A stretch of 54,171 nt of DNA from the NCBI GenBank assembly GCA_003138795.1, contig PLHC01000062.1:95410-149580 (forward strand), read 5' to 3'. Positions 12,109 to 27,823 of the stretch are shown in pieces. This DNA is from Granulicella sp. GTDB taxonomy: Bacteria > Acidobacteriota > Terriglobia > Terriglobales > Acidobacteriaceae. Both the position numbers and the translations under genes were made by a program. Each line of letters opens with the position of its first letter. Position 1 is the stretch's first letter. The notes beneath the pieces were generated by a model. The model made no database searches. It was not told where the DNA came from and saw only the letters and a program-made list of their open reading frames with translations.

Positions 12109-12297
12109 CTATCGGCAATCCAGCCGACGGTCCCGCGGCAGCCAGGATGCCTTCGTGGGGGCGTTGAACAGCAGCGAGAAAACCACCAGCCCGATGGCAA
12201 TAGCTCAACGGCGAGCACCACGCGGAAGAGCACTTCACGGGAAGTTGGTGTTCAGCCAGTCCCGGTCCACTTTCTGGTCCAAGAAGCGGTGCTGCAT
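12109..12297 (-). pseudogene. Possible decayed small membrane protein gene downstream of the cupredoxin
   Basis: In one minus-strand frame an ATG at 12297, after AAGGA, starts 20 codons ending LNTNFP and a TGA (12237-12235). The same frame resumes at about 12204 as AIGLVVFSLLFNAPTKASW, a membrane-like helix, and ends at TAG 12109. Between them another frame reads EVLFRVVLAV, also hydrophobic. Two compensating indels would restore one 63-codon ORF with a transmembrane helix. It would be the third gene of the leftward cupredoxin/cytochrome group. The rest of 11895-12361 shows no convincing gene. The family is unknown, and this may be chance. Confidence 0.35.
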
Positions 12298-12361
12298 GAT
12301 AGGCCGTCCTTGCAATCTGCGAGATGTCCGGCGGCAACCTTAATCGTCGCCGCCGTGCGGC

Positions 12362-12943
12362 TTACTTCGAGAGCGTGAAATCCGCTGTTGTATCTCCGGC
12401 TACCTTTACCGGGTTGGACTTGCTCTTGGCGCCTTCATTCCACGCAGTGACGGTATAGGTGCCATCCGGGACGTTCTCAATCTTGAATTCGCCTGATTTG
12501 TCCGTCATGGCAAAGTACGGTGTCGGAGAAACGATGAGGTACCCCGACATATCCGGATGAACATTGCACAGCAGGGGGATGATGCCGGGGTTGTCGAATT
12601 TGAAGGATTGCCGCTGACCCTGCGGCCAGGTGCCCAGGTTGTGCCCAAGCTTCTTGTTGCCACTGACGGAGGGCCAGAAGACGTTATGTTGTACGCTGTC
12701 GCTGTTGAGGAATTCGACCGTCGTCCCCTGCTGGATGGCCATGATGTGCGGCACGAACATCAAGCCCTTCTGGTCCATCGTGACGTGCTGGGCAGGCGCA
12801 GGAAATGTCTTGCCAGCGATGGCTTCCACATACACGACAGATTCTCCCTTGACGCCGGAAACCTTGCCGTGAATCGTGCCAGCGAAGGCCGCCGTGCTGC
12901 ATGCTGTGAGGATGGTGAGTGCTACCAGAGCGATGTGTTTCAT
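12362..12943 (-). CDS. Exported cupredoxin (plastocyanin-like) with C-terminal carboxypeptidase-regulatory-like domain
   Basis: This 193-residue secreted protein has a signal peptide at 1-21 (MKHIALV...AAFA). Type 1 copper ligands are visible: His in SVQHNVFW (about residue 85), then Cys, His and Met in LLCNVHPDM (about 126-134). Residues 147-193 form a small beta-sandwich (GEFKIENVPDGTYTVTAWNEG), like a carboxypeptidase-D regulatory or DUF4198-type domain. A strong AGGAG lies six bases before the ATG. It follows the haem-barrel gene by 64 bases, so both are probably in one transcript. The likely role is periplasmic or outer-surface electron transfer. Confidence 0.82.
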   Translation of the reverse strand: MKHIALVALTILTACSTAAFAGTIHGKVSGVKGESVVYVEAIAGKTFPAPAQHVTMDQKGLMFVPHIMAIQQGTTVEFLNSDSVQHNVFWPSVSGNKKLGHNLGTWPQGQRQSFKFDNPGIIPLLCNVHPDMSGYLIVSPTPYFAMTDKSGEFKIENVPDGTYTVTAWNEGAKSKSNPVKVAGDTTADFTLSK

Positions 12944-13008
12944 GTTGTCTCCTGTTGGTGAAAGATGAAGGATTCTGCAAGCTGCGCGAGTCGTCGTTCA
13001 AGCCAGCA

Positions 13009-14352
13009 TCAAAAGACGAACCGCGCCAGTAAATAAGCGGTGTTGTTATCGCTCGCGTTGCGCCCTGCGCCGTCGTAGTTGGTGGCTCCGCCGTTGAAGC
13101 GCGTGTAGCCGGTGTACTGAAAGGCCAGGTCGAGATTTTGCAGCGGCCAGTAGGACAGGGTTGCGATGTATCCAGCGCTTCTCGGATCACCATTGGCGCT
13201 CCCCGAGATCGCGGCTTGAGGGTACAAGAGGGGATCGACTGTTCCCGAGGTCGCGAACCATCCGAAGGCCCCTGAGTAACGATCCCCAATGTGATACTCC
13301 ACATTGGCATTTCCCGTGTTCAGATGATGCGCACTCTGGTCTGCTGTGCCGGTTGCCACACTTGCCAGGAGTGAGGAAGTCTCCCGGATGTAGGTGCCGC
13401 GCACGGAGAGGACATCTTTCCTGCTGATGGTCAGGTCGTACTGAATATCCGGACCCCAGTCCGTATAGCTATCCTCCGGCCCGGTGACGGCTCCAGGCGT
13501 TGATGCCATATGCATGCCGTAGGCGCCGATTTCGAGATTGTCCTTTGCCCCATTCTGCTGCCATGCAACCCGCCAATACGGCGCCACGCCGCGTATATTG
13601 AAGGCGGCATTCTGTCCGGTTGTGGGCTGAGAACTTCCGAGATGGTCAGAGCGATAGATCGTTCCGACTACATACAGATGCTGGTTCCACATGCTATAAG
13701 CGCCTATTCCCGCCACGTCCTGCCCCAGCCGTCCGTCAATAATCGGTACGGCCGTGGGAACCGGAGCTGAATCAGGAGCGATGAAAGGATAGCCCCACGC
13801 CGGGGTGCTGTTCCAGAGGTCTTCCACGGTCGGGTTATTGTTCAGCGTAAGACCATACACCCACTCTTTGCCCGCTACTTGTTTCTTATTGGCATAGCGG
13901 ATATCGGTGTTATCCATGCTGAAATGGTCGTTTTGCGCATCATAGGTCAGCTGGAGAAAGCTGCCGAGATGTTCGCCCCAGGCGCCTGCGAGGTAGATCG
14001 ACACGTCCTGCGGAAATTCAAAGTTCCCGTCCTGCGTGCCAGGCTGGGGAGTTTTGGTACTTGTCAGCGAGGTCTCGAAAAAGGCACTCAGAGGCAGGGA
14101 AGCAAGAAGGTTGAGACCTGCGTAGCGTTTGCTGGATGCGGCGGCAATGATATCGCGGTTCTCTGCCCTATCTACATACCCCAGAAGCTTGAACTGCCGC
14201 CCCGCGGCATTCAACTCCGGGGGCGTGGTATGGCAGCCGCTGCACGGTAATCCGGTCTGGCGCGCATAACTGGGAAGCGCCATTGCACTGGGAGCTAATC
14301 CCCAGGAGGCAGCAAATAATGTAAACACACAAAGTGAGATATTACGTCTCAT
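13009..14352 (-). CDS. Mono-haem c-type cytochrome fused to an outer-membrane beta-barrel-like domain
   Basis: Starting at ATG 14352 (SD AGAAGGA) gives 447 residues with a signal peptide (1-25) and a single haem-binding CSGCH (Cys37, Cys40, His41) directly after the cleavage region. The context LPSYARQTGLPCSGCHTTPPELNAAGRQFKL is typical of this cytochrome-porin group. The remainder is a series of amphipathic strands with aromatic girdles and ends in ARFVF, the terminal aromatic signal of outer-membrane barrels. Such proteins may pass electrons across the outer membrane or bind a redox partner. The frame is open 40 codons further upstream, but this start has the signal peptide and ribosome site. 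Confidence 0.8.
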   Translation of the reverse strand: MRRNISLCVFTLFAASWGLAPSAMALPSYARQTGLPCSGCHTTPPELNAAGRQFKLLGYVDRAENRDIIAAASSKRYAGLNLLASLPLSAFFETSLTSTKTPQPGTQDGNFEFPQDVSIYLAGAWGEHLGSFLQLTYDAQNDHFSMDNTDIRYANKKQVAGKEWVYGLTLNNNPTVEDLWNSTPAWGYPFIAPDSAPVPTAVPIIDGRLGQDVAGIGAYSMWNQHLYVVGTIYRSDHLGSSQPTTGQNAAFNIRGVAPYWRVAWQQNGAKDNLEIGAYGMHMASTPGAVTGPEDSYTDWGPDIQYDLTISRKDVLSVRGTYIRETSSLLASVATGTADQSAHHLNTGNANVEYHIGDRYSGAFGWFATSGTVDPLLYPQAAISGSANGDPRSAGYIATLSYWPLQNLDLAFQYTGYTRFNGGATNYDGAGRNASDNNTAYLLARFVF

Positions 14353-14652
14353 GATCCTTCTTTCCGACAAATGAAGAGTGCTGCCGCTACGAGAAGTGTG
14401 GTTCTCCGGCTGATATCCATGAAAGCGCTTCAGGTCTCTCCGAATCACAGATGGGAAATGGCATTGGAGCATTTTGCTGCCAGGCTAGCAAGAACGTATG
14501 CGACGGCCGTCACAGCTAATATCTTGGGCCATGTTCATAGTGCAAGCGGATTCAATGGACCGCGCACACGGTCATGGCAAAGACAGCAGGAAATGGGAGC
14601 CATATCGATGATCCACGGCTCACTCCAGATAGAGGGAAAGGCGTTCTGGGAG

Positions 14653-16125
14653 TCACCCTGCGAGCATGTCAAGCGGTTGCACTTGTTCGTCATGACGTTC
14701 GAACGCACAGGGCAAGGTGACCACCAGCCGCGCTCCCCCTTCCGGGCGGTTCGACGCGGTAACAACGCCACCGTGTGCGCGAACGACCGCTTCAACAAAG
14801 GCCAGGCCGAGCCCGTGACCGCTTGAGTCTCTTCCCTTCACTCGCTGCTCAAACATCTCGCGACCAGTTTCCTCAGTAAATCCAGGTCCATCATCTTCCA
14901 GTATCAGAGTTGCGACCTCCTCCTCGACGTGCAGTTGTATGAGGATGGTGCATGACGCCGGCAGGTGTTTTAGCTCATTATCGAGCAGGTTCGAAACGGC
15001 TCGATGAAGGAGCGCAGCATCGGCAAATACCTTAGCCGCACCTGCGCTACGCAGCTCTATGCGCAGACAACGCTCCGACATGCAGGGTTCATAAAGGTCG
15101 ATCATGACACGGATCAGCTCGTCTAAGTCGATCTCAGAACGCGAGAGCCTGAGTGCGTCGGCCTTCGCCTCCGCCACGTCGAGTGAAGTGTTCAAAAACT
15201 CTGTGAGCCGGTCCAATTCATCGATCGCGGATACGATCATCGGCTCGGCCTGTTCGCTACGGATACCGGTTGAAAGAGATATCTCGAGCTTCCCACGGAT
15301 TGCCGTCAGCGGACTTCGCAGATCGTGGGCCAGCGAATCCGTGATTGTATGTAGCTGGTGCACCGAACTCTCGATGCGATCCAACATGCGATTCAGAGTC
15401 CGTGCCAGATTGCCAACTTCGTCGTTGTATTGCGTCGTTGGAACTCGACTACTCAGGTCGGATTGACCGATTCTCGAAGCGGCCTCGGTAATCTCACGCA
15501 CATGTCCCAGCATGCGTCTCGTTGCGTAGAAGACAATGGCAAAGCCGAACAGGACGATGAGTACACCCAAAGACAAAAAGCGAAGACGAAGATTTCTCAG
15601 CACTCGTAGCTCGTCTCTTTCTGAGAGCCCGAGGTAAATGAAGCTGCCATCGTCAATCCGAACAGATACCACGCGGAAGGGTATATCGAAACCCTTCACG
15701 CGCAGATGGAAAGGAACGTCCGGTACAACTTTGCTCGCGCGGATCGCATCCAGATTTGCTTGTCCGTTGCCTGCCCCAACCCATAGTCTTGGCGGACCAC
15801 TTTTTTCAGCCTGAAGAAAGAAGACAGAATCATTTTCATTGCCCTCGGATCGCGATTTATTGGGAACTTCTTTGCTTGCCAGCTCCGCTACTTCACTGAC
15901 AACGCGATCATAGAGACGATCTTTGGGTGTTCGCTCAGCGACATCTCCGAGCACCTCGATCTCGCCTGAGAGCCAGGCATCGCTGCGCCGTTGGATATCG
16001 TTTGCTACGAAGCGATGCAGCCCCGCGAAGACGAGCGACGTCCCAAAAGCAAACGCCAGCGTAGCCCAAAGCGAGATACGCCATGCACCACTCCGCAACC
16101 GCGTGTTATCGCTCTTTGAGGACAT
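14653..16125 (-). CDS. Sensor histidine kinase (HAMP/HisKA/HATPase)
   Basis: This 490-residue kinase has TM1 at about 18-38, a periplasmic sensor of about 145 residues, TM2 at about 180-201, HAMP at about 203-256, HisKA with phospho-acceptor His267 in SLAHDLRSPLTAIRG, and an HATPase domain with N-box NLLDNELKH, G1 DDGPGF and G2 GHGLGLAFVE. Its start overlaps the response regulator stop by 20 bases. The sensor domain has no recognisable ligand signature. The pair is divergent from the seven-gene redox operon and upstream of the haem-barrel/cupredoxin group, so control of either is plausible. About 300 bases without a gene separate it from the haem-barrel start. Confidence 0.92.
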   Translation of the reverse strand: MSSKSDNTRLRSGAWRISLWATLAFAFGTSLVFAGLHRFVANDIQRRSDAWLSGEIEVLGDVAERTPKDRLYDRVVSEVAELASKEVPNKSRSEGNENDSVFFLQAEKSGPPRLWVGAGNGQANLDAIRASKVVPDVPFHLRVKGFDIPFRVVSVRIDDGSFIYLGLSERDELRVLRNLRLRFLSLGVLIVLFGFAIVFYATRRMLGHVREITEAASRIGQSDLSSRVPTTQYNDEVGNLARTLNRMLDRIESSVHQLHTITDSLAHDLRSPLTAIRGKLEISLSTGIRSEQAEPMIVSAIDELDRLTEFLNTSLDVAEAKADALRLSRSEIDLDELIRVMIDLYEPCMSERCLRIELRSAGAAKVFADAALLHRAVSNLLDNELKHLPASCTILIQLHVEEEVATLILEDDGPGFTEETGREMFEQRVKGRDSSGHGLGLAFVEAVVRAHGGVVTASNRPEGGARLVVTLPCAFERHDEQVQPLDMLAG

Positions 16126-16783
16126 AACCTACACCTCGCAGCGTCTTGATAAGTGGCTCACGGCCTTCTGTATCAACCTTACCGCGCAGACGATAGATAT
16201 GGACATCGACCACATTTGTATCCGGCTGAATGCGCATGCCCCACACCTCAGCCAGAAGCATCGAGCGCGTGACAACGCGACCGGCGTGCCGGCATAAATA
16301 TTCCAATAAAACAAACTCTTGCGGACTAAGATTCAATAACTCGCCGCCACGCGATGCCCTGCGTTTCAGTAGGTCCAGTTCCAGATCGACGACGCGCAGA
16401 AAGGTTGGACTCGCGGTCGCCGCCACGTTTCTCCTGAGCAGGTTCCGCAGCCTGGCCAGCAGTTCTGCAAGTGCAAATGGCTTGGTTAGATAGTCATCGC
16501 CGCCCTGCTCAAGACCACGCACTCGGTCGTCGATCGAGCGCCGCGCCGAGAGGATCAAAACCGGGCTGCTGACGCCAAGATGGCGAAGCCGAAGGATAAG
16601 GTCGATACCATCCTGATCCGGCAGACCAAGATCGACGATCAACGCATCGTAGACCTTGGCCGATGCAAGGCTCTCAGCGGTCTTGCCGTCTCCCGCAACA
16701 TCGACCTCATATCCGGCATCAGCGAGCGACGCCTTCAGAAAGTCCTGAATTTCGAGTTCATCTTCGACAAGCAGAAGCTCCAT
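16106..16783 (-). CDS. OmpR/PhoB-family response regulator
   Basis: The receiver domain starts MELLLVEDELE, giving an acidic pocket of Glu7/Asp8, phospho-acceptor Asp51 (IVDLGLPDQDG) and the conserved Lys in LTKPF. A winged-helix DNA-binding domain follows (about 130-225), with the trans-reg pattern LSPQEFVLLEYL...VVTRSMLLAEVWG...VDVHIYRLRGKV...LRGVGYVL. I start it at ATG 16783, where the receiver begins; 13 further in-frame codons upstream add no domain. It is co-translated with the kinase at 14653-16125. Confidence 0.93.
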   Translation of the reverse strand: MELLLVEDELEIQDFLKASLADAGYEVDVAGDGKTAESLASAKVYDALIVDLGLPDQDGIDLILRLRHLGVSSPVLILSARRSIDDRVRGLEQGGDDYLTKPFALAELLARLRNLLRRNVAATASPTFLRVVDLELDLLKRRASRGGELLNLSPQEFVLLEYLCRHAGRVVTRSMLLAEVWGMRIQPDTNVVDVHIYRLRGKVDTEGREPLIKTLRGVGYVLKER

Positions 16784-17006: not shown

Positions 17007-17930
17007 ATGAATGATGTGAATCAAAAGAACCTCAGAGACACTTTCACCGCCTATCTGCCGCTGCCGGCAGACACGGAGTCGCACCTCAAGGCGGCGCTGG
17101 AACGCGTGCTGCATAATCCCGGCAGCCTGGTTCGGCCCCAAATCGTCAGGAAGATGTTCGCAGCGTATGGCTTGCCCGCACAGCAGGCCACCGAGTTGGG
17201 AATCGCGCTGGAATACTTCCATACAGCCTCGCTACTGCTCGATGACCTCCCCTGCATGGATGACGCGATCGAACGTCGCAGCGCGCTTTGTATTCATATC
17301 GAGTTTGGCGAAGCCGAAGCAATTTTGGCCGCACTTGCCCTCGTCAACCGGGCGTACGGTCTCACGTGGAGGGCTGTCTCAGGCTGCGGGCAGGGTCGTG
17401 AGGCACACGCACTCGCTTATATCGAGCAGTATCTCGGCGTAGGGGGACTGCTGAATGGTCAGAGCATGGACTTGAATTACCCGTCACTCAGCCGCGATCA
17501 CAAGACGACCGAACAGACTGCCATGGGGAAGACGGTCTCGCTGATCCGGCTCACACTCACCCTGCCGGGCATCCTGGGCGATGCTTCGGCCGCCGAGTTA
17601 CAACTCCTCGAGCGCGTCGCAATCTGCTGGGGCCTCAGCTATCAGATCGTCGATGATCTGAAAGACGTGCTGCAGAGTCCTGCTGAGAGCGGCAAGACGG
17701 TCTCTCGCGATATTTCTCTGGGACGTCCGAATATTGCACTAGCTATTGGCATAGCCGATGCTGTTGAGCGACTTACACGTCTCATCAGCATTGGCGACTG
17801 GATGCTGCGGCGTCTCGTTGGCCTGCGACCAGGAGTCGCATTCCTACAGGATCTACGTGGCCAATTGAACCAGGAGGCCGCTGAAATGATCGCCAATGCC
17901 TGCGAGAGCTCCGTTCAAGGAGCAGCATGA
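17007..17930 (+). CDS. CrtE-like geranylgeranyl (polyprenyl) diphosphate synthase
   Basis: This protein has about 307 residues from ATG 17007 (GGAG six bases upstream); a start 33 bases earlier lacks a good ribosome site. The first Asp-rich motif is HTASLLLDDLPCMDD (Asp79, Asp80, Asp85), very like CrtE GGPP synthases; the second is VDDLKD (about 217-222). A small Ala lies five residues before the first motif, where farnesyl synthases carry an aromatic that stops chain growth, so C20 or longer products are expected. The usual R-R-G after the first motif reads RRSA. It opens the operon and overlaps the ABC permease by four bases. Confidence 0.82.
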   Translation: MNDVNQKNLRDTFTAYLPLPADTESHLKAALERVLHNPGSLVRPQIVRKMFAAYGLPAQQATELGIALEYFHTASLLLDDLPCMDDAIERRSALCIHIEFGEAEAILAALALVNRAYGLTWRAVSGCGQGREAHALAYIEQYLGVGGLLNGQSMDLNYPSLSRDHKTTEQTAMGKTVSLIRLTLTLPGILGDASAAELQLLERVAICWGLSYQIVDDLKDVLQSPAESGKTVSRDISLGRPNIALAIGIADAVERLTRLISIGDWMLRRLVGLRPGVAFLQDLRGQLNQEAAEMIANACESSVQGAA

Positions 17931-19039
17931 TTTTCCTCAAGCTGATCTTCACCAATCTACTGCGGCACCGCATCCGTTCACTGATCAGCATCGCCGGCAT
18001 CGCCTTCAGTGTCGCTGCAATGCTCACCATCGTAACTATCTTGCAGGGTGCCGTCGGCATGTTCTCCGGCATTCTTTCCAGCGACAGCGAGATCATCGTC
18101 TTCGAGCGCAATGTCTCTGACCTTTTCTTCAGCAATGTCCCCGCAGACGCAGTAGCGGAGATAGCATCCTGGCCCATCGTCCAGCACGCAGACCCCGTTC
18201 TCTTTGGCATCGTCTCCAGTTCCGACCACCCGATCATCACCTGCTTTGGCATTACGCCCTCGGACGCACGCCTGCGCAAGGCCACGTGGCTCACGGGTGA
18301 CAGCGCAAACTTCGCCAAACACAGCGATGACGTGGTATTGGGCGAACGCGCGGCAGAGTTTCTGCATGCGACTCTGGGCAACTTTGTTGCCATCGGTCAC
18401 GGCACCTTCCATGTCATCGGCATCGTGAAGACGGCCAATGGCTTTGAAGACGGCGGTGTCTTCATGCCCCTCAGCTCCGCGCAGAGTTTCTTTCACAAGG
18501 AGGGTTCATCCTCAGTGATCACCATCAAGTTGCATGACAAGAAAGATGCAGCAGAGTTCAAGAGCATGGTGAAGGCGAAATTTCCGACCCTGATAGGTCT
18601 CGAAGACGAAGAGTTCACTCGCTCCTATTCGCAATTCAAAATTCTCAAGGCGACAGCCTGGGCTGTCGGAGGCTGCGGGCTCCTGCTTGGCGGCCTCGGC
18701 GTTGCCAACACGATGATTATGTCGGTCTTCACGCGCATCCGCGAGATTGCAATCCTGCGCGTCAGCGGTTTTTCAAACCTGCAGATTGCCGGCATGATCT
18801 TTGGCGAGTCTGCTCTCGTCTCAGTCCTCGGCGCCGTATCAGGCTTGTTGATAGGCTCCGCCTTTCTCTTCACCCTCAAGCTCGTTCCCGCGCTCCACGG
18901 GTACGTCGATGTCACAATCCAGGCAGTCGTTGTGCTTATCGTGATTGTTCTGGCGCTGCTGACCGGCGTTGCGGGAGCGCTTTACCCGGCCATCTACGCT
19001 ATGCGTATTCGCGCGGTGGAGGCGCTACGCTTCGAATGA
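17927..19039 (+). CDS. FtsX/MacB-type ABC transporter permease
   Basis: This 370-residue permease has one N-terminal membrane helix (about 17-40), a large periplasmic domain (about 41-240) and three C-terminal helices (about 245-270, 290-320, 330-355), the MacB/LolE topology. The typical sequence MSVFTRIREIAILRVSGFS (about 265-283) is the coupling region. These transporters extrude lipoproteins, lipids or peptides, or act as mechanotransmitters. Both ends overlap neighbours by ATGA-type junctions (17927-17930 and 19036-19039). No adaptor (MacA-like) gene is in the operon. Confidence 0.83.
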   Translation: MIFLKLIFTNLLRHRIRSLISIAGIAFSVAAMLTIVTILQGAVGMFSGILSSDSEIIVFERNVSDLFFSNVPADAVAEIASWPIVQHADPVLFGIVSSSDHPIITCFGITPSDARLRKATWLTGDSANFAKHSDDVVLGERAAEFLHATLGNFVAIGHGTFHVIGIVKTANGFEDGGVFMPLSSAQSFFHKEGSSSVITIKLHDKKDAAEFKSMVKAKFPTLIGLEDEEFTRSYSQFKILKATAWAVGGCGLLLGGLGVANTMIMSVFTRIREIAILRVSGFSNLQIAGMIFGESALVSVLGAVSGLLIGSAFLFTLKLVPALHGYVDVTIQAVVVLIVIVLALLTGVAGALYPAIYAMRIRAVEALRFE

Positions 19040-19743
19040 CAACCTCGATTCAAGAAGAATCCAGCCAGACACGCCTTGTCCTGCGCGCTACCGATGTTTG
19101 GAAGAGCTACGATGATGGCGCCATCAGCGTATTGAAGGGCGTCAACTTTGAAGCAATCCAAGGCCAGACCGTCGCGCTATGCGGCCCATCAGGCTGTGGC
19201 AAAAGTACGCTGTTGCACCTTCTTGGAGGGCTTGATGAACCCGACCGCGGCCACATATCGGTCAATGGCGTCGAGCTCCATCGCCATCGCAGTCGATTGC
19301 ATCTGCTGCGCCATGAGATTGGCTTCGTCTTCCAGATGCACAACCTCATTCCCGATCTCACGCTCGAAGAAAACTGTCTGATTCCCACGGTGGCCGCGGG
19401 CGTCGACCGCCAAACAGCTCGTGCCCGTCTAAAGCTGCTCACCGATAGTACCGGTCTAAGTCACCGTCTCCACAACCGGATTCAGAAGCTCTCCGGCGGA
19501 GAGCGCCAGCGCACAGCACTATGCCGCGCTCTGATGAACAGCCCGCGCATCCTGCTCGCCGACGAGCCCACCGGCTCCCTCGACGAGGGCACCAGCACGA
19601 CCGTCTTTCAACTACTTCTCGATATCGCCGCAACCGAAGGTGTAACCCTGGTGATGGCAACGCACGACCGTGCGCTCGCCGAACAATGCGACCGACTCGT
19701 CGAGATGCATGATGGGAGGATTCGTGAGCCTGAGTCTATCTAG
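19036..19743 (+). CDS. LolD/MacB-type ABC transporter ATPase
   Basis: This 235-residue ATPase has Walker A GPSGCGKST (about 52-60), signature LSGGERQRTALCRAL, an intact Walker B LLADEPTGSLD with the catalytic Glu, and H-loop MATHD. It is cut for pairing with the FtsX-like permease just upstream, whose stop it overlaps. A Shine-Dalgarno GGGAGGA inside its 3' end drives the next gene, so the complex is co-expressed with the oxidase-like protein. Confidence 0.9.
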   Translation: MTTSIQEESSQTRLVLRATDVWKSYDDGAISVLKGVNFEAIQGQTVALCGPSGCGKSTLLHLLGGLDEPDRGHISVNGVELHRHRSRLHLLRHEIGFVFQMHNLIPDLTLEENCLIPTVAAGVDRQTARARLKLLTDSTGLSHRLHNRIQKLSGGERQRTALCRALMNSPRILLADEPTGSLDEGTSTTVFQLLLDIAATEGVTLVMATHDRALAEQCDRLVEMHDGRIREPESI

Positions 19744-21130
19744 CGCCGTCACATTCGCACCGCCTCAGGACCCTGCGGTCGAGCGGCCGCTCAATGCTCC
19801 AGAACTCAATGCTCCACGAATTACCACATCCAGCGCACCCCAGGTCTTCGCCTTCGCCGCGTGGCATAGCCTCGCATGGCTTGTCTTCGCCAATGCAATC
19901 GGCGTGCTTCTCGCAGCAATGCTCCTTATCCCCAGCCTCAATGGCTTATTCGACGCCTGGACCTACGGTCGCTGGATGCCGGTTCACCTGAACCTGCAGC
20001 TTTACGGCTGGAGTAGTTTGCCGTTGCTCGCCTTTCTCTTCAAGGTGTACGCAGTCGATCGCGAGCCAGTTGCGGCCTGGAGTCGCCCGGTTCTCTGGGT
20101 TTGGTCTTCGGCACTGGCCATCGGCTCAGTCACGTGGATCACCGGCCACTCCAGCGGCAAACTGTTTCTCGATTGGACTGGATACTCCCGAGTGCTCTTC
20201 CCGCTCGCGATCCTGGCCACCTGGATGCTACTGGCCTACGCGCTCATCCGTTCCTGGAATGGTCCTGAGTACGCATCACCCCTGGCCCGCGCCGGAAAGA
20301 TCATCGGGCTTGCCCTTCTGTTTGCTGTCCCGCTCCTTCTATACATCTCTGCCAGCCCCACCCTCTATCCGCCGATCAATCCCGACACGGGCGGTCCCAC
20401 CGGAGCCAGCCAGCTTGAATCCACGCTCGTCACCATCGCGATCCTGCTAGTGCTTCCCTTCGGTCTCACGCGGCGTAAAGCCACTCGCTCATGGCCGCTC
20501 ACCGTCTCCTGGACCGTCTTCTTCGCAGAGTCTATTCTTTGCCTCGGGCTCGGCCGAGCAGACGTGAGCCACCATCGCCCCACGCAATACATCAGCCTTG
20601 GCAGCCTGCTCGTGTGGATCCCGCTCATCCCCACCTACTTCGCCGCCTTCGAGTGGCACCCCAACACGCGGCGCTGGCGCATCGCCTTTCTGTGCTGGTG
20701 GTCGTTGCTCATTCCTACCGGCTGGGCTCTATTCCTGCCCGGCATACTAGACCACTTCAAGTTCACCGATGGACTCGTCGGCCATTCCCTGCTCTCCATG
20801 GCCGGCTTCGTCACCGCCCTCCTCATCTTCGTGATGGTCCAGCTGCTTGGCGAAGGCGGATGGATCTTCAATGGAACGTGGTCATTCTATGTTTGGAACC
20901 TGAGCGTCCTTGCCTACGTGCTGCTGATGTCTGTAGCCGGATGGCAAGAGGGTTCGCATCCTGCCTTCGCGATCGTCCCCGGCACCGCTCGCAACATCAT
21001 CTATGCCTTGCGCTTACTGGTTGGCGTTTTAATGTTTATCGCCTCAGCAGATTGGCTGATCGATGCATCGAAGCTGCTTCGCGAGCCAGCCTACGCGCAA
21101 ATCCCCAACGCCAGGAGCCAGATCCGATGA
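19724..21130 (+). CDS. Divergent haem-copper oxidase subunit I-like (CcoN-like) membrane protein
   Basis: The chosen start is GTG 19724, placed four bases after GGGAGG; an ATG 54 bases upstream lacks such a site. The 468 residues include about 12 hydrophobic helices. MPVHLNLQLYGW (His88) matches the helix II low-spin haem ligand region of CcoN, GRADVSHHRPTQ (His283-His284) matches the CuB His pair, and KFTDGLVGHSLLSMAG (His354) matches helix X. However, the second helix X His is Leu/Ser, and the helix VI CuB His-Tyr region (TGGPTGASQLESTLVTI) has no His. It is thus CcoN-related but may not bind a full binuclear centre. It overlaps its neighbours in the operon. Confidence 0.65.
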   Translation: MSLSLSSAVTFAPPQDPAVERPLNAPELNAPRITTSSAPQVFAFAAWHSLAWLVFANAIGVLLAAMLLIPSLNGLFDAWTYGRWMPVHLNLQLYGWSSLPLLAFLFKVYAVDREPVAAWSRPVLWVWSSALAIGSVTWITGHSSGKLFLDWTGYSRVLFPLAILATWMLLAYALIRSWNGPEYASPLARAGKIIGLALLFAVPLLLYISASPTLYPPINPDTGGPTGASQLESTLVTIAILLVLPFGLTRRKATRSWPLTVSWTVFFAESILCLGLGRADVSHHRPTQYISLGSLLVWIPLIPTYFAAFEWHPNTRRWRIAFLCWWSLLIPTGWALFLPGILDHFKFTDGLVGHSLLSMAGFVTALLIFVMVQLLGEGGWIFNGTWSFYVWNLSVLAYVLLMSVAGWQEGSHPAFAIVPGTARNIIYALRLLVGVLMFIASADWLIDASKLLREPAYAQIPNARSQIR

Positions 21131-21537
21131 AGCGTCGCCTGCTCTTCGCCTACCAGATCCTCACCGGATTGTCCGACACCTCGACCGGACTTCTGCTGAT
21201 CGCTGCACCTGCGCTGACGCTGCGTCTCATGCATCTGCACGCGGTCGCAGACACGCTTCCCTTCCTCTCCTACATCGGCGCCTTCGTGCTCTCCGTCGGC
21301 CTCGCGTGTCTCTACGGAGCTCTGCTCACCACGCGTCCAGTCTTCACGGCGAAGCTCGAAGCAGTCTGGCTGCTCACCGCAATCACGCGCGGCATCGTCG
21401 CCATCTTTGTCGTCTCAAAGGTCGCGACTGGCGCACTCGAAACAGGATGGGTCACCGTCGCTATCTCCGACGGCGCGTTGGCGCTCCTGCAGATCATCGG
21501 CCTCGCCCGAGGATGGTTGAGCGATGCCGCAGAGTAA
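21127..21537 (+). CDS. Four-helix membrane protein of unknown function
   Basis: This 136-residue protein has four predicted membrane helices (about 7-30, 43-65, 73-95 and 105-128) and starts with MKRRLLFAYQ. The ATGA overlap with the oxidase-like gene fixes the start at 21127. It has no Cys, and its only His residues sit in LMHLHAV (about residues 36-40) between helices 1 and 2. I do not recognise a family. The position suggests an accessory subunit or assembly factor of the redox complex. It overlaps the next gene by 14 bases. Confidence 0.72.
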   Translation: MKRRLLFAYQILTGLSDTSTGLLLIAAPALTLRLMHLHAVADTLPFLSYIGAFVLSVGLACLYGALLTTRPVFTAKLEAVWLLTAITRGIVAIFVVSKVATGALETGWVTVAISDGALALLQIIGLARGWLSDAAE

Positions 21538-23467
21538 CCAACGCGTAGCTGGGTGGCGCGGTGTCTCGCTCGTCGCCATCACCTATGTCTACTTCCTGAT
21601 CTTCGCGCAGTTCGCATTCCTCAAGCGCCTCACCGAACTCAGCATCGCTGACGCACATCTAAAGGCGGTCATGGCGGCGATGGCCTTCGGCGGCATTCTC
21701 TTCAGCCTGCTCACTCCGCGCACAAACCTTCTCCGCTCGCCACGACTCCGCCTACAGGCAGGTCTCGCGCTCTGTGCCGCGGCAGCTCTGCTTACGCTGC
21801 TTCCACTCGTCCTCCCCGCCAGCATCGCGGTTGCCTTCCTCATCGGCAGCGGGCTGGGCATCCTCACCGTCACCCTCGTCACGCACCTGCGTTCATGGCT
21901 GGGAACTGGGAGCCCTCTCCTCAAGGTCGGCATCGGCACCGGCCTCGGCTATCTCATCTGCAACTTCCCACCGCTCTTCACGGCCACACCAGCCGCGCAA
22001 GCGCTCACCGCTGCAGCGCTGTGTCTTGCGGCCATCGCGATCGCCTCAAAGACCACCCCGGACACTCCCCCCGAGGGCACGCCGGCCCTGCAATCGACGA
22101 TCTCTTTTCCTCAAGTGCTGATCTGCTTCACCGCGCTCATCTGGCTCGACTCCGCCGCCTTCTTCATCATCCAGGGCACGCCCGCGCTCAAGGCCGGCAC
22201 CTGGGAGGGCACAGCACATCTCTGGATCAACGGGCTCCTCCATCTCGTTGCCGCGGTGGCCAGCGCGTGGCTGCTGCGCCGCCGCGGACTCTCATCGACA
22301 CTCTCGCTGGCTTTCCTTGCTCTGGCCTGCGCGTGCCTGCTCCTACTCGACCCACACTGTGTTCCAATCGCCTCGCTTTTTTATCCCATCGGCGTGTCGC
22401 TCTACTCGGTTGCACTGGTCGCCTACCCCTCCCTGCTCGCCCCAGCTTCCTCCACCGGCGAGCGCGGCCGCAAAGCCGGATGGATCTACGCTATTGGCGG
22501 GTGGTTCGGTTCCGCGATGGGTATCGGCATGGGGCAAAACCTCGGCCACATCCCACCGTTCTTCCTACTCTTGGCCGGCGCTCTCGTATTGACGCCACAA
22601 ATCGCTGCCCTGCTCCGCAGCCGTCGGCGTGAGTTGATCGCAACCGCTGTTGTCCTCCTCGCAGCACTCGGCATCTGGCGCACAGTCGCTGCTCTCAGCC
22701 CCAAACCGCCTGTGCTCACACAGGTCGAGCGCGGTCGGCAGGTCTACATCTCCGAAGGCTGCATCAACTGCCACTCGCAGTACGTTCGTCCGAACACCGC
22801 CGACGTCCTGATGTGGGGGCCGGCGCAGACCATCGACGACCTCCGGAGCGAGCGCCCACCGCTCATCGGCAATCGCCGCCAGGGGCCGGACCTATCCGAG
22901 GTTGGCAGCCGCCGCTCACCATTGTGGTTCAAGGCCCATTTCTACGCGCCCTCACAGATCAACCACGCCTCGTTCATGCCCTCCTACGCCTACCTGTTTC
23001 GCAGCCAGCCGGGCACCCAAAACCAGGGCGCCGACCTCATCGCCTATCTCCAGAGCCTCCAGGATCAGGGCGTAGAGCACCTGCTCGTCGAACGTGCCTG
23101 GCATCCCTCCGCCGCGGATTTCGCTGGCGCGAGCGCAAAGCACGGGTCTCGACTCTTCACCACCTACTGTGCCACCTGCCACGCATCTGGCGGTCAAACG
23201 CGTGCAGCGTGGCGAAGCAGCTTTCGAAGACTCCCGCCAGACCTGTCCGTAGGTCCTCTGCAAGACCTATCCGCCGCTGACTCGCCCGATCAACGCAGAG
23301 ATCGTCTCGCCCAGATCGTTAAGTTCGGAATACCCGGAACCGACATGGCGGGCCACGAATACCTCTCGGACAGAGACGTAGCTTCACTCAGTCTTTGGCT
23401 GCAGCAGACCATCGCACAGCCGCTTGCACCCTCAACCAACCCACTCTCTCCCGGAGAAACTCGATGA
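21524..23467 (+). CDS. MFS-like membrane domain fused to two CcoO/CcoP-type cytochrome c domains
   Basis: This 647-residue fusion has residues 1-390 as about 12 membrane helices resembling a major facilitator. Residues 397-515 form a CcoO-like cytochrome c: EGCINCHSQYVRP (Cys413, Cys416, His417), then GPDLSEVGSRRS and axial-Met candidate FMPSY (Met485). Residues 536-630 form a second, CcoP-like cytochrome c: YCATCHASGG (Cys549, Cys552, His553) with GTDMAG (Met608). The last membrane helix (about 371-390) would place both haems in the periplasm. The fusion joins a transporter-like domain to the electron-entry domains normally held by CcoO and CcoP. It is translationally coupled on both sides. 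Confidence 0.75.
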   Translation: MPQSNQRVAGWRGVSLVAITYVYFLIFAQFAFLKRLTELSIADAHLKAVMAAMAFGGILFSLLTPRTNLLRSPRLRLQAGLALCAAAALLTLLPLVLPASIAVAFLIGSGLGILTVTLVTHLRSWLGTGSPLLKVGIGTGLGYLICNFPPLFTATPAAQALTAAALCLAAIAIASKTTPDTPPEGTPALQSTISFPQVLICFTALIWLDSAAFFIIQGTPALKAGTWEGTAHLWINGLLHLVAAVASAWLLRRRGLSSTLSLAFLALACACLLLLDPHCVPIASLFYPIGVSLYSVALVAYPSLLAPASSTGERGRKAGWIYAIGGWFGSAMGIGMGQNLGHIPPFFLLLAGALVLTPQIAALLRSRRRELIATAVVLLAALGIWRTVAALSPKPPVLTQVERGRQVYISEGCINCHSQYVRPNTADVLMWGPAQTIDDLRSERPPLIGNRRQGPDLSEVGSRRSPLWFKAHFYAPSQINHASFMPSYAYLFRSQPGTQNQGADLIAYLQSLQDQGVEHLLVERAWHPSAADFAGASAKHGSRLFTTYCATCHASGGQTRAAWRSSFRRLPPDLSVGPLQDLSAADSPDQRRDRLAQIVKFGIPGTDMAGHEYLSDRDVASLSLWLQQTIAQPLAPSTNPLSPGETR

Positions 23468-24042
23468 AGACGATCGCACGCTCGCTCCTTGTTACGCTTC
23501 CCCTGCTCTGCGCTACCGTTGCGTTAGCCCAGCACCAGGCCCTCACGCTCAACCCGGACTCCAGTGACGTGAAGTTCACGTTAGCCAGCAATCATGACAC
23601 CACGAATGGCACATTCCATGTCGAAAAGGGCACCATCGACTTTGATCGCAACTCACTGAAGATGTCCGGATTGGTTGTTGTGGCGGCAGGCAGTGGCAAC
23701 ACCGGAAGTAGCGGCCGCGACAAGAAGATGACCACAGAAGTACTTGAGGCGGCGAAGTTTGCTGAGGTAACGTTTGTCCCCCAGAGCTATCAGGGCTCGA
23801 TCGCACCCGCCGGCGACTCCACCATTCAGGTCACCGGAATCTTCACCCTCCACGGCACGGCCCATGACCTCACGGTTCCGATGCAAATTCACATCGAGGG
23901 AGCCAGGTGCACCGCGAAGACCCACTTCGAAGTTCCCTTTGTTGAATGGGGTCTAAAGGATCCGAGCTGGTTCGTTCTCAAAGTGGCCAAACAGGCCGAC
24001 GTCGACCTCTCACTGGTTGGATCCCTTTCGCCGGCCAGCTAA
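23464..24042 (+). CDS. YceI-family periplasmic isoprenoid-binding protein
   Basis: This protein has about 192 residues from ATG 23464, overlapping the previous stop by four bases. A signal peptide covers 1-22 (MKTIARSLLV...ALAQ). The mature part is a YceI-like lipocalin fold, with SSDVKFTLAS, GTFHVEKGTIDFD, MTTEVLEAAKFAEVTFVP and a long C-terminal strand set (VTGIFTLHGTAHDLTVPM). YceI proteins are known to bind polyisoprenoids such as octaprenyl chains or quinones. With a GGPP synthase-like gene at the head of the same operon, it may carry the isoprenoid product or quinone to the membrane redox proteins. That is inference. Confidence 0.88.
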   Translation: MKTIARSLLVTLPLLCATVALAQHQALTLNPDSSDVKFTLASNHDTTNGTFHVEKGTIDFDRNSLKMSGLVVVAAGSGNTGSSGRDKKMTTEVLEAAKFAEVTFVPQSYQGSIAPAGDSTIQVTGIFTLHGTAHDLTVPMQIHIEGARCTAKTHFEVPFVEWGLKDPSWFVLKVAKQADVDLSLVGSLSPAS

Positions 24043-24189: not shown

Positions 24190-24485
24190 GATCAGGAGTG
24201 GGCGATGGACTTCAGCGTCGATGGCTTGGCGACGGGAAGGATGGTGCGCATCCTGAGCGTGGTGGATGCGTACACACGCGAGTGCCTGGCGCTGGAGGCA
24301 ACACCAGCCTCAGCAGTGGCCGCGTAACGCGGGTGCTGGAGCGGCTGATCGGCGAGCGTAGTAGGCCAGAGGCGGTGCGCTCGGACAACGGTCCTGAGTT
24401 CACCTCCCTCCCTATGCTGGCTTGGTCGGAGGACTGGGAGGTCGGTCTGGTCTACATCCAGCCGGGCTGACCGATGCCAAACTCT
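24190..24485 (+). pseudogene. IS3-family transposase OrfB fragment (frameshifted remnant)
   Basis: The frame at 24193-24300 reads QEWAMDFSVDGL..RMVRILSVVDAYTRECLALEA, the first catalytic-Asp region of IS3-type (rve) transposases. A frameshift near 24300-24315 moves to a second frame with RVTRVLERLIGER and RSDNGPEFTS (second Asp). It ends at HIQPG-like text, where the expected Lys codon is TGA, shortly before the normal third acidic region. No intact orfA, end repeats or catalytic Glu was found. The bases 24043-24190 before it show nothing else. Confidence 0.72.
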
Positions 24486-24600
24486 GCTGCTTCATCGCCC
24501 CTCACCCCTGACCATAAGTCTTAATCAATCAGGGTGTGGACGGTGGACTTATGCAGAGATTCCTTAGATCCCAGTCATAACAGCAGATCCCTATTTTGGT

Positions 24601-24618
24601 AGGTGGCACGTGTCACCT
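24601..24618. promoter_or_regulatory. Near-perfect 18-bp palindrome upstream of the TonB receptor gene
   Basis: AGGTGGCACGTGTCACCT matches its own reverse complement at 16 of 18 positions. It lies about 90 bases before the receptor start and just upstream of a possible promoter at 24638-24666. Its size and symmetry suit a dimeric repressor or activator site; it could instead be a leftover end of the IS remnant. Confidence 0.4.
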
Positions 24619-24637
24619 GTCAGTAACACTTATGTGT

Positions 24638-24666
24638 TTGCATAGTGCTTCGTCTTTTTTTTATGA
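24638..24666 (+). promoter_or_regulatory. Weak sigma-70-like promoter for the TonB receptor gene
   Basis: TTGCAT (24638-24643) is followed after 17 bases by TTATGA (24661-24666), in an A/T-rich stretch with an eight-T run. It lies about 40 bases before the receptor ATG. The -10 box is poor, so this is only a candidate. Confidence 0.3.
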
Positions 24667-24706
24667 AACACAAGTATTCAAATCTAACGTTTCGAGGCAT
24701 TCTCCC

Positions 24707-27700
24707 ATGCAACGATTTATGGTCTATGGATTTTGGTGCAGTTTCGTATTGTTGTGCCTTCTGGGGTCCAACCAAGCAGGATTCGCGCAGTCTACCGGCA
24801 GCATTCAGGGACTCGTGCGTGATGTTTCTGGAGCGGTCGTTCCTCATGCCAGGGTCCAGGTAAATAAAATAGAAACAGGATTGGTGCGCGAGTCGGAGAC
24901 CGACGGCGCGGGCGTGTATGTTGTCCCCTCACTGCCTCCTGGGCGTTACGTTGTGACAGTTAGCGCAACAGGAATGGCGCAGGTCCGCGAAGAGAACGTC
25001 GATGTGACGGTCGGTCGCAATTTTCCTCTAAACTTCGATTTGAAAGTTAGCAGCGCGCAGCAAACGGTGAACGTAAACGCTGCATTACAGGTCGCGCTCG
25101 AAACAACATCGCAGACCCAGAGCCAGACGCTGGATCAGAGGACAGTGCAGGATCTCCCACTGAACGGTCGGCACTTCATCGATCTGTTTCCGACGGTTGC
25201 CGGATCGCCAACCCCACCTCAGAACGGCAGCTTGACGGCGCCGACCCGGGGAACGGGCGCTAGTGGATTCAACTCTGCCGGATACCGCGAAGATATGAGC
25301 AACCTGATGATCAACGGTATTACACATACGGACCTGCAACAAAACCAGATTGCCTTCCAGCCGACAATCAACATTGTGAGCGAGATGCAGGTGATGAATT
25401 CCACACCGAGCGCCGAGTTTGGAAGAAGCAGTGGAACGATTGTGAATGTTGCTACACGTGCAGGAACGAACGCCTTTCATGGCGAGGCGTATGAGTTTGT
25501 GCGGAACACGGTATTTGATGCTCGCAACTTCTTCAATCCGGTTTCGGTGGCGGCGTCGCCCTTCAAGCGAAATCAGTTCGGTGGCGATTTCGGCGGCCCT
25601 ATCTGGCGCAATCACACCTTCTTTTTTGTGACCTATGAGGGTCTGCGGCAAAGGCAGGGCGTGACGATCAACAGTGGTGTGTTGACGGCCGCGCAGCGCA
25701 CATCAACCGATCCAGCAGTGATGATGCTGATTCCGCTGATTCCGCAGGCGAACAATGCGACGGGAACGGCCTTCATTGGGTCGGCCTCGGCCCCGGTTAA
25801 CATCAATCAATGGTCGACAAACATCAGCCATAGTTTCAACGCAGCAGACTCGATTAGCGGATTCTATGTGTTCCAGACGGATAAGCGGAACGAGCCTGTT
25901 TTGCAGGGGGATACTGTGCCCGGTTTTGGCGATCAGCGATACTTCCGGCGGCAGTTCATCTCGCTGAACGAGACCCATATTTTCAATACGCAGATAGTGA
26001 ATGAAGTGCGATCTGGTATCAGCCGGTTGCGTCCGGATTATCTTCCGTACTTCCAGGCAAACCCTGCTTCTTACGGGATCAATAACGGCATTAACCTGCC
26101 CGTAGGATTACCCCAGATCACGATTAGCTCGATTGCGCTGACAATTGGCGGGCCATCCGCTTATCCGCAGTACCGCGGCGATACAACGGCTGTATTGTCG
26201 GATACGCTGAGCATCCTGAAGGGCAGGAACTATATTCGTGTCGGGGGAGAGTACCGGAAGTTTATCTCGTCCAACAACACCGGGAATACGGGGAGCTTCA
26301 CGTTTGCGTCGCCGACGACGTTCCTCGAGGACGAGGCGAATGCCTTCAAGGTGACACCGCAGGAATCTATATCAAGCCGCATCTTCGTGAACGCAATCAA
26401 TACGTATGTGCAGGACAACTTTAAGGCCTCACCGAAACTCACACTTGAGGGCGGTGTGCGATTTGAGTGGAACGGAACTCCAACGGAGGGTGCCAACCGG
26501 TTTGTGACATTCAACACGACGACCGGATCGCTACAGCGGGTTGGGAGTGCGGGATATTCCCAACTGTATCCGCAGAACTACTTTGCTGAGCCTCGCGTTG
26601 GTTTTGTGTGGGATCCATTTGGCAAGGGAAAGATAATCCTTCGCGGTGGATATGCGTTCCAGGCGGAGCAGCCAATTACAAATCCGCTGATTACTCTATC
26701 GGCAAATCCTCCGTTTGCGACACCGTTGAATTTCACCTCCAGCACCTCGACACCTTACGTCACATTTGAGAATGCGTTTACAGTGGCGGCAGCGTCTAAA
26801 CTGGCGCCGTCGACCACGCCTCAGACCTTCAAGGACGCCTACATGCAGAATTACAACTTCAATGTGCAGTATGCATTGAGCGATACCATCGGCGCGCAGA
26901 TAGGGTACTACGGAAACACCGGTACCCATCTGCGGCTGACGCGCAACATCAATCAGCCAATCAGTGGTGTGGAGCCATTCACTGCGGTTTCTGCGAGCAG
27001 TCCAATCGCGGCAGGGCGCTCGCTGGGCAACATCACAGACTATGACAGCGATGGTATTTCAAACTACAACGCTCTTTGGCTAATTGTCACCAAGCAGATG
27101 GGGCACGGTCTGCAGCTGAACGGTTCGTATACGTTTTCGAAGTCACTGGACTATAACTCGCTCAGCACACAGGGCGTGATTCTGCAGGACAGCTACAATC
27201 CTGCGAACAACTATGGGCCGTCGGATTTCGATGTGCGGAATAGATTCGTCTTCAGCGGTATATATGCGCTGCCGATACATGGCAACTTCCTGATCAGCGG
27301 CTGGCAGTTGACTGGAATCCTGCAGTTGCAGGGTGGAAACCCACTCTCGGTATTTACGAATCTGGCCACGAACGGAACAGCCGGCACGATTCGTGCAGAC
27401 GAGAGCGGGCCGGTTTCCAAGGAGCGCGTGTTTCTTGCAAATGGATCGGTGCAATATCTACCTCAGTCTATCTGCTATACAGCAACGGCTGGTTGCACAT
27501 TCTCGAATCCTGTCGCGGCGGACGGCACGCAAGGGCGGAATTCGATCTATGGCCCAGGCTTTGAAGATACTGACCTGTCCCTCGGCAAATTCTTCGCGCT
27601 GTATCGCGAAGCCAGGCTTGAGTTCCGTGCGGATGCGTTCAATCTGCTCAATCATCCTAACCTCGGGCAGCCTGTGTCGCAGTTTACGGTAACCGCGCCG

Positions 27701-27823
27701 TCGGGCAGCACGCCGGGTTCTGTGACGCCGGGTACGTTTGGCCAGATCACGAATACACGCTTCCCACTCGGCGACTCAGGATCATCTCGGCAGCTGCAAC
27801 TTTCCTTGAAACTGCTGTTTTAA
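24707..27823 (+). CDS. Oar-like TonB-dependent receptor with N-terminal carboxypeptidase-regulatory domain
   Basis: Taking ATG 24707 (GAGG upstream) gives about 1038 residues. A signal peptide (1-28) ends FAQ. Residues 29-115 form a carboxypeptidase-D-like Ig domain (GSIQGLVRDVSGAVVPHARVQV...PPGRYVVTV), a plug domain follows with DLPLNGRHFIDL (about 152-163), and the rest is a 22-strand-type barrel ending FKLLF-like (LSLKLLF). This architecture is massively expanded in Acidobacteria, usually for large or complex substrates. The 24 bases between it and the metallophosphoesterase imply one operon. Codon use looks less GC-rich than flanking genes. Confidence 0.9.
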   Translation: MQRFMVYGFWCSFVLLCLLGSNQAGFAQSTGSIQGLVRDVSGAVVPHARVQVNKIETGLVRESETDGAGVYVVPSLPPGRYVVTVSATGMAQVREENVDVTVGRNFPLNFDLKVSSAQQTVNVNAALQVALETTSQTQSQTLDQRTVQDLPLNGRHFIDLFPTVAGSPTPPQNGSLTAPTRGTGASGFNSAGYREDMSNLMINGITHTDLQQNQIAFQPTINIVSEMQVMNSTPSAEFGRSSGTIVNVATRAGTNAFHGEAYEFVRNTVFDARNFFNPVSVAASPFKRNQFGGDFGGPIWRNHTFFFVTYEGLRQRQGVTINSGVLTAAQRTSTDPAVMMLIPLIPQANNATGTAFIGSASAPVNINQWSTNISHSFNAADSISGFYVFQTDKRNEPVLQGDTVPGFGDQRYFRRQFISLNETHIFNTQIVNEVRSGISRLRPDYLPYFQANPASYGINNGINLPVGLPQITISSIALTIGGPSAYPQYRGDTTAVLSDTLSILKGRNYIRVGGEYRKFISSNNTGNTGSFTFASPTTFLEDEANAFKVTPQESISSRIFVNAINTYVQDNFKASPKLTLEGGVRFEWNGTPTEGANRFVTFNTTTGSLQRVGSAGYSQLYPQNYFAEPRVGFVWDPFGKGKIILRGGYAFQAEQPITNPLITLSANPPFATPLNFTSSTSTPYVTFENAFTVAAASKLAPSTTPQTFKDAYMQNYNFNVQYALSDTIGAQIGYYGNTGTHLRLTRNINQPISGVEPFTAVSASSPIAAGRSLGNITDYDSDGISNYNALWLIVTKQMGHGLQLNGSYTFSKSLDYNSLSTQGVILQDSYNPANNYGPSDFDVRNRFVFSGIYALPIHGNFLISGWQLTGILQLQGGNPLSVFTNLATNGTAGTIRADESGPVSKERVFLANGSVQYLPQSICYTATAGCTFSNPVAADGTQGRNSIYGPGFEDTDLSLGKFFALYREARLEFRADAFNLLNHPNLGQPVSQFTVTAPSGSTPGSVTPGTFGQITNTRFPLGDSGSSRQLQLSLKLLF

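Follow-up and report, generated by a model that had tools for sequence, protein, structure and literature searches.

Cytochrome cbb3 oxidases pass electrons from CcoP through CcoO and haem b to a haem b3-CuB centre, and their assembly is served by CcoA, a copper importer of the major facilitator superfamily (MFS) that carries the motifs MxxxM and HxxxM, according to PMC5829832. According to PMC9113575, an isoprenoid is present in most YceI-family structures, with octaprenyl phosphate and ubiquinone-8 as examples; the same work links one YceI protein, BcnA, to a cytochrome b561 as parts of a system that keeps lipid peroxidation in check. Terriglobus roseus KBS 63 (genome NC_018014, as given in PMC5900883) is described in PMC8407424 as having two caa3 oxidases and a single cbb3 operon, in which an unknown cco gene accompanies ccoN and ccoO; Acidobacterium capsulatum 161 is likewise reported with cbb3 N and O genes and an extra cco gene. 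Here we describe a seven-gene module at positions 17007-24042 of a 54,171-nucleotide stretch of Granulicella sp. DNA (assembly GCA_003138795.1, contig PLHC01000062.1, positions 95,410 to 149,580), hereafter the window, in which a cbb3-like haem protein is encoded together with a prenyl synthase, an ABC transporter pair, and a YceI protein. The recognised parts of the system come from known superfamilies, whereas one protein with four transmembrane (TM) helices has none. No description of the module was recognisable by titles or abstracts among the open-licence PMC papers that our searches listed.

A conserved module of overlapping genes

The seven open reading frames (ORFs) of the module lie on the + strand and overlap at every junction in the ORF list of the window. 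The first encodes a polyprenyl diphosphate synthase (PPS) similar to farnesyl or geranylgeranyl diphosphate (FPP/GGPP) synthases (17007..17930; PF00348, 121 bits), followed by an FtsX/MacB/LolCE-type ABC permease (17927..19039; PF12704 and PF02687) and a LolD/MacB-type ATPase (19036..19743; PF00005, 125 bits; best NCBIfam match LolD, 213 of 307.8 bits). Next come a CcoN-like subunit with the haem-copper oxidase (HCO) fold and without a CuB site (19712..21130), assigned by AlphaFold2 modelling, PDB fold matches, hhalign, and ligand residues, and the small four-TM protein (21127..21537), which has no Pfam match. The last two genes encode an MFS-fold domain fused to CcoO-like and CcoP-like mono-haem c domains (21524..23467; FixO, 92.8 bits, and Cytochrom_C, with AlphaFold2 and Foldseek for the MFS part) and a YceI-family protein with a signal-peptide-like N-terminus (23464..24042; PF04264, 71 bits against a cut-off of 23.7). 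The overlaps measure 4 bp between PPS and FtsX (17927-17930), FtsX and ABC (19036-19039), CcoN-like and four-TM (21127-21130), and MFS and YceI (23464-23467), and 14 bp between four-TM and MFS (21524-21537). At the ABC/CcoN-like junction the overlap is 32 bp from the ATG at 19712, which we took as the start, and 20 bp from a possible GTG start at 19724; the overlapping operon given in a preliminary description of this DNA, with 4-20 bases at every junction, is present and presupposes this GTG. The gene labels in that description largely held. Pfam cut-offs were passed for PF00348, MacB_PCD and FtsX, ABC_tran, FixO and Cytochrom_C, and YceI, in agreement with its labels for the permease, ATPase, CcoO-CcoP, and YceI proteins, and the MFS label was borne out by fold alone. 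The CcoN-like and four-TM proteins matched no Pfam family at E<=0.01; the former is identified by profile and fold.

A search with seven close copies of the CcoN-like protein as queries returned 76 loci, a lower bound, since the scan requires an exact peptide pattern. By label, 49 of these belong to Acidobacteriota, 24 to Verrucomicrobiota, and one each to Bdellovibrionales and Rhodanobacteraceae, with one unlabelled. The nearest tree neighbours of the window protein are two Granulicella metagenome-assembled genomes (MAGs) and one Acidobacteria MAG. The locus labelled Rhodanobacteraceae (L034) has a Terriglobus-like copy of the module, placed next to Terriglobus in the CcoN-like tree, and its contig is therefore probably misbinned acidobacterial DNA.

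Gene content was counted in the 50 of 80 distinct loci with at least 1.5 kb of DNA beyond both cluster ends. The CcoN-like, PPS, and MFS/CcoO-P genes are found in all 50, the FtsX, ABC, and four-TM genes in 49 each, and YceI in 47. A divergent two-component pair upstream of the seven genes (14653-16783, - strand) is part of the module in 43 flanked loci. It consists of a CopS-like sensor histidine kinase (HK; 14653..16125; Pfam HATPase, HisKA, and HAMP; TIGR01386, 200 of 292.6 bits) and a CopR-like OmpR-type response regulator (RR; 16106..16783; Response_reg and Trans_reg_C; TIGR01387, 228 of 279 bits), both below the NCBIfam cut-offs. The 50 loci show 13 gene arrangements. The commonest (26/50) has HK/RR divergent and YceI last; the second (8/50, all Verrucomicrobiota) has YceI first, with RR and HK last. 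As the genes stay together through rearrangement, they are probably functionally tied.

The module is patchily distributed, occurring in 7 of 101 relatives and 5 of 297 genomes of the phylum, a count that sets aside two short matches in long frames, one in G152, which is a canonical CcoN, and one in G362, by analogy. A reverse search of 247 genomes of the phylum, with only the MFS domain as query, recovered the same five genomes and one 19-bit match, so the gene association is not an artefact of starting from CcoN. Chance clustering is ruled out by this search together with the gene content of the 50 loci: the seven genes form a conserved module in soil Acidobacteria and Verrucomicrobia, clustering far beyond chance. 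The preliminary description had allowed that the genes might rarely cluster in relatives, or that the synthase and YceI had been joined by chance; we found the opposite, with PPS in 50 and YceI in 47 of the 50 loci, across two phyla or more and despite changes in gene order.

The CcoN-like subunit has a cbb3 fold without its copper site

The AlphaFold2 model of the CcoN-like protein, built with 48 sequences, has a pLDDT of 87.5, and its seven best PDB fold matches are all chains of cbb3 oxidases (Foldseek to 3mk7: TM-score 0.64, E 9.4e-10). A profile search of the PDB by hmmsearch found CcoN at E 9.8e-6 over approximately the first 140 residues, and hhalign against six acidobacterial canonical CcoN sequences aligned residues 43-454 at E 1.2e-6, with other HCO groups at 9.1e-6 and 4.3e-5. 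The window protein has no COX1 match in the Pfam scan, although weak COX1 matches exist for 10 of 48 homologues (best E 6.3e-7).

Residue counts were made on 76 copies, the 80 distinct loci minus four with partial CcoN (L058, L063, L084, and L088; <=380 bits); seven duplicate rows of an initial 83-row count were removed. We take the ligand roles of the aligned CcoN positions in the low-spin haem b, haem b3, and CuB sites to be those of canonical CcoN. In the hhalign alignment, H92 lies at a low-spin haem b ligand and H358 at the first His of the HxH motif, the proximal ligand of haem b3. H92 is present in 76/76 copies and H358 in 75/76 (the remaining row is X), and the register (F/Y)TDxxxxH around H358 agrees with CcoN. 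The second His of HxH, the other low-spin haem b ligand, is found in 25/76 copies: outside the clade of the window, 25 of 27 rows have it (D and X in the other two), whereas none of the 49 rows inside does; there the position is Leu in 28, Phe in 20, and Ile in one. This distribution is consistent with one loss on the stem of the clade (support 100/99). Bis-His ligation of low-spin haem b is therefore absent from the window protein and retained in most other lineages.

The copper site is affected in all lineages. The TM6 CuB His is absent at its aligned position throughout (Leu 74/76, Val 2/76), and any His in TM6 occurs in two copies (L059 and L078), at another position. The HH pair is partly kept (H287 in 66/76, H288 in 57/76), so that no three-His CuB site is found, and a stretch YPPxNPxSGG[PA]TG is conserved before TM6. 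From these alignments, the copper site was likely lost first, followed by one haem ligand in the Acidobacteriaceae-type clade. Because the TM6 CuB ligand is missing in 76/76 and the window also lacks the second low-spin haem ligand, the complex is unlikely to be a working oxidase and should not reduce oxygen. The idea in the preliminary description that CcoO and CcoP feed a working CcoN catalytic subunit is not supported, given the same two absences.

The MFS-CcoO-CcoP fusion and the four-TM protein

The model of the fusion protein has a pLDDT of 87.2, and its fold matches MFS transporters in Foldseek. Its CcoO part gives a match to CcoO of known structure at E 3e-32 (PF02433, 92.8 bits). Copies scoring >600 bits (n=64) were used for residue counts, as were PPS copies >290 bits (n=72); the truncated or split copies of L059, L061, L074, L076, and L080 are among those left out. 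All 64 full-length copies have two CxxCH motifs and two Met ligands, and the mono-haem site and Met ligand of CcoO (C413, C416, H417, and M485) are likewise complete in 64/64. The CcoP-like part that follows has a single CxxCH (549-553), instead of the di-haem arrangement of CcoP. We considered the MFS domain as a CcoA-like copper importer and rejected this assignment, as the motifs MxxxM in TM7 and HxxxM in TM8 were both found in 0/64 MFS copies. Among 35 homologues of the four-TM protein, three match DUF4345 and four match TMEM141, weakly; its conserved residues are D17, G21, T84, R88, D115, and Q122.

The prenyl synthase, YceI, and alternative transporters

Analysis of the PPS copies revealed that D79, D80, D85, D216, D217, D220, K175, H72, and R43 are invariant (72/72), so that both Asp-rich motifs are complete. 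The lysine of GGKxxR, which we take to be the motif that binds isopentenyl diphosphate (IPP), corresponds to position 40, where the 72 copies have S (54), K (14), R (2), N (1), or T (1), and the window has S40. The CrtE-like synthase of the preliminary description stands as a polyprenyl synthase by PF00348, whereas the curated GGPP synthase CrtE profile (NF045685) gave 97 of 460 bits; the best NCBIfam match is farnesyl diphosphate synthase, also below its cut-off (128.5 of 275 bits). Products of C15-C20 are our guess. The genome has three PPS genes in all, two of them outside the module, and two COX1 genes elsewhere, and therefore housekeeping need not fall to the module. No match to ccoN (TIGR00780) was found in the source genome at E<=0.001. 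The nearest PDB sequences to the YceI protein are BcnB (5ixg) and BcnA (5ixh).

In six loci no FtsX/ABC pair was found (L079, L082, L085, L129, L130, and L131); the contig of L082 ends within the module, and the DNA of L130 begins inside PPS. In the four deep Acidobacteriota loci among them (L085, L129, L130, and L131), a gene of the MMPL/resistance-nodulation-division (RND) type lies downstream of the MFS-CcoO-CcoP gene. The L129 copy (11652-15383) has Pfam MMPL and sterol-sensing domains and scores 310 bits to HpnN and 237 bits to the sterol transporter BstA, in each case short of the cut-off, and the copies of L085, L130, and L131 are 49-51% identical to it. Among the 79 module loci searched, and within the available flanking DNA, this gene occurs in no others, nor in the window, and hence in no locus with the ABC pair. 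As unrelated transporters with lipid-moving relatives replace each other, we argue that the cargo would be a lipid.

In L130, L131, and L085, the RND gene is followed by a methyltransferase gene whose product passes the Pfam cut-off for a UbiE/COQ5 domain but scores higher for general methyltransferase domains. A metallo-beta-lactamase (MBL)-fold hydrolase lies at or near the module in 14 of 79 loci, with NCBIfam scores below cut-off. The deep acidobacterial form of the locus (L129, L130, L131, and L085) thus has an HpnN-like RND protein, mostly an MBL hydrolase, and in three cases a UbiE-domain methyltransferase, in tight order. In the window, a + strand frame at 47238-47999, approximately 23 kb from the module, weakly matches this methyltransferase (33% over 92 aa, E 2.8e-8).

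The module in Terriglobus roseus

The T. roseus genome has a sole CcoN-like match (5038758-5039972), in the module, and a single FixO match (5041597-5041971), inside the MFS-CcoO-CcoP gene of the module. COX1 matches occur in two places only, both outside the module, in line with the two caa3 oxidases reported. Because the only FixO and CcoN-like matches of the genome lie there, the published "high-affinity cbb3 oxidase" of T. roseus is most likely the complex of this module, as judged from sequence. PMC8407424 reports low ccoN transcripts in T. roseus, no detection below 10 µmol O2 per litre, and a high apparent Km; Trojan et al. conclude that the "cbb3" is not used by T. roseus for trace-oxygen respiration and do not exclude a loss of function. 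A copper-less complex would explain these low-oxygen results. In Acidipila rosea, a separate 891-aa frame (1087761-1089581) with COX1 and FixO matches is a CcoN-CcoO-type fusion outside the module.

Proposed function and alternatives

We propose that the module makes or recruits a dedicated isoprenoid lipid, quinone- or terpene-like, with which it exchanges electrons and which it transports out across the envelope; we consider this proposal evenly balanced between right and wrong. In this scheme, PPS would make a C15-C20 prenyl diphosphate, which would become a membrane redox lipid, and the haem or haems of the CcoN-like subunit would pass electrons between this lipid and the haems of CcoO and CcoP and a soluble cytochrome c. 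The FtsX/LolD-type ABC pair, or the RND protein, would extract the lipid, YceI would carry it in the periplasm, and the two-component pair would control the module. The module would then resemble the lipid protection by YceI and cytochrome b561 (BcnA-LcoA), built from an oxidase minus its oxygen site. The isoprenoid-redox link of the preliminary description gains from two features of the deep loci, an HpnN/BstA-like RND protein in place of the ABC pair (four loci) and the UbiE-domain methyltransferase (three loci); the working oxidase that it included does not survive. A more specific version is tentative, somewhat more likely to be wrong than right: the loss of the copper site would have left a cbb3-type oxidase that oxidises or modifies a dedicated isoprenoid and passes electrons through CcoO/CcoP haems, mostly MFS-anchored, YceI and an exchangeable lipid exporter would move the product, and some published acidobacterial "high-affinity cbb3 oxidases" would be this non-respiring complex.

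Several observations weigh against the redox-lipid proposal. H92 and H358 correspond in CcoN to ligands of two different haems, and the Ser in place of the IPP-binding Lys may lower or change the activity of the window PPS. The two-component pair scores best against metal-response families, below cut-off, a possible hint at copper. Three of the 50 flanked loci gave no YceI (one of them, L068, has an 18-bit match), and L079 is without both the ABC pair and the RND gene despite 7.6 kb of downstream DNA. The methyltransferase and MBL genes occur in a minority of loci, and the best NCBIfam match of the former is corrinoid-associated in two of three copies and demethylmenaquinone-type in one, all below cut-off. 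Two of the 50 flanked MFS/CcoO-P genes are incomplete (L074 and L061): L074 has the CcoO-P part only and no four-TM gene, while L061, like L080, has the MFS and cytochrome parts in separate frames, making the MFS fusion usual, not universal.

The published assumption for T. roseus, a real cbb3-type (class C) terminal oxidase with accessory genes, draws on the cbb3 fold, the CcoO homology, the partly kept HH pair (H287 and H288), and PMC8407424, where ccoN, ccoO, and one additional cco gene are described as a cbb3 operon. We reject it on the missing copper ligand and regard it as very improbable: the TM6 CuB His is absent from every copy, the clade of the window has no second haem b ligand, the CcoP-like part has one haem and not two, and the window protein has no COX1 match, the weak matches of some homologues notwithstanding. 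In the T. roseus study, ccoN transcripts were also low at the oxygen levels tested and the apparent Km was high for a user of cbb3. Alternatively, the haem of the CcoN-like subunit, in an open pocket free of copper, may serve as an oxygenase, peroxidase, or dehydrogenase acting on the isoprenoid itself, the complex being a biosynthetic lipid-modifying enzyme and not an electron carrier or antioxidant. The near-universal b3 proximal ligand H358 beside absent copper ligands, the conserved YPPxNPxSGG[PA]TG stretch, and the dedicated synthase and exporter in the same operon are compatible with such an enzyme, which the sequence alone does not separate from the redox-lipid proposal. We know of no HCO-fold enzyme that acts as an isoprenoid oxygenase, peroxidase, or dehydrogenase, which counts against it, and we hold this alternative to be unlikely.

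The resemblance of the regulators to heavy-metal two-component systems, below cut-off, suggests a copper or envelope-stress system, in which CopRS-like regulators, an MFS metal transporter, an ABC exporter, and haem proteins would act together and the synthase would supply a stress lipid. The MFS copper importer CcoA does serve cbb3 assembly (PMC5829832); however, its two motifs are absent from all 64 MFS copies, no copper site is left to fill, and the closest relatives of the RND protein of the deep loci are lipid transporters and not metal exporters, which makes this explanation quite improbable. The joint occurrence of a prenyl synthase and haem proteins in one conserved operon would also fit a synthase that supplies the prenyl chain of a modified, heme O/A-like haem of the CcoN-like subunit. 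Neighbour clustering showed no gene beyond the module, such as a haem-prenylating one, recurring in most loci (clusters were judged by eye and not all annotated), and the YceI protein and exporters would be left unexplained; we hold the supply of a modified haem to be a very improbable role of the synthase.

If the redox-lipid proposal is true, the CcoN-like subunit would be, to our knowledge, the first HCO relative to have given up the reduction of O2 or NO for work on a lipid; quinol oxidases likewise use a lipid, but for the reduction of O2. Abundant soil bacteria would also have a new pathway for envelope lipids, and it would be necessary to look again at surveys in which such "ccoN/ccoO" matches serve to infer microaerobic life. 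The puzzle of the T. roseus "cbb3" would become testable.

Genes around the module

Adjoining the histidine kinase, the frame at 13009-14352 (- strand) encodes a secreted, barrel-like protein that has a CSGCH haem c motif at its N-terminus and no Pfam match; we dropped it as a member of the module, as just one other locus (L070) has a homologue at E<=1e-10. Directly downstream of YceI, the + strand frame 24198-24470 is a fragment that resembles the final part of a DDE/integrase-type transposase and may be a remnant of past mobility; its SDNGPEF motif is presumably of the transposase type. A large protein that by eye resembles a TonB receptor follows at 24596-27823 (+ strand), and similar ORFs flank nine other loci, where they may merely be common. 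Among the neighbour clusters, the widest (15 loci) consists by eye of reverse-strand ORFs, and the second and third are the MBL hydrolase and the Verrucomicrobial YceI.

Comparison with known systems

The module shares single features with several described systems. Like CcoA, its MFS-fold protein is tied to a cbb3-like complex; unlike CcoA, it is fused to haem domains and lacks both copper motifs in 64/64 copies. The permease and ATPase match LolCE/MacB and LolD best, but stay below the NCBIfam cut-offs (LolCE 77 of 362 bits, LolD 213 of 308), with a single permease gene, and no LolA or LolB was found among the ten window proteins scanned. The RND protein of L129 is a relative of the hopanoid and sterol transporters HpnN and BstA (310 and 237 bits), but falls below both curated cut-offs and occurs where the ABC pair is missing. 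With cbb3 CcoNOP, the module has in common the HCO fold with cbb3 structures as best matches, the FixO/CcoO domain, and the CcoP-like haem c domain. It differs in the absence of the TM6 CuB ligand and, in the clade of the window, of the second low-spin haem ligand, in the usual fusion of CcoO to an MFS domain, in a CcoP-like part with one haem instead of two, and in the lipid-type genes of the operon. In the BcnA-LcoA-PsrA system of lipid-peroxyl detoxification, as in the module, a YceI protein, of a family that binds isoprenoids, is genetically linked to a membrane b-type cytochrome. No cytochrome b561 partner was matched among the ten window proteins scanned; the membrane haem protein of the module is instead HCO-derived and has c-haem partners, and the module brings its own prenyl synthase and exporter.

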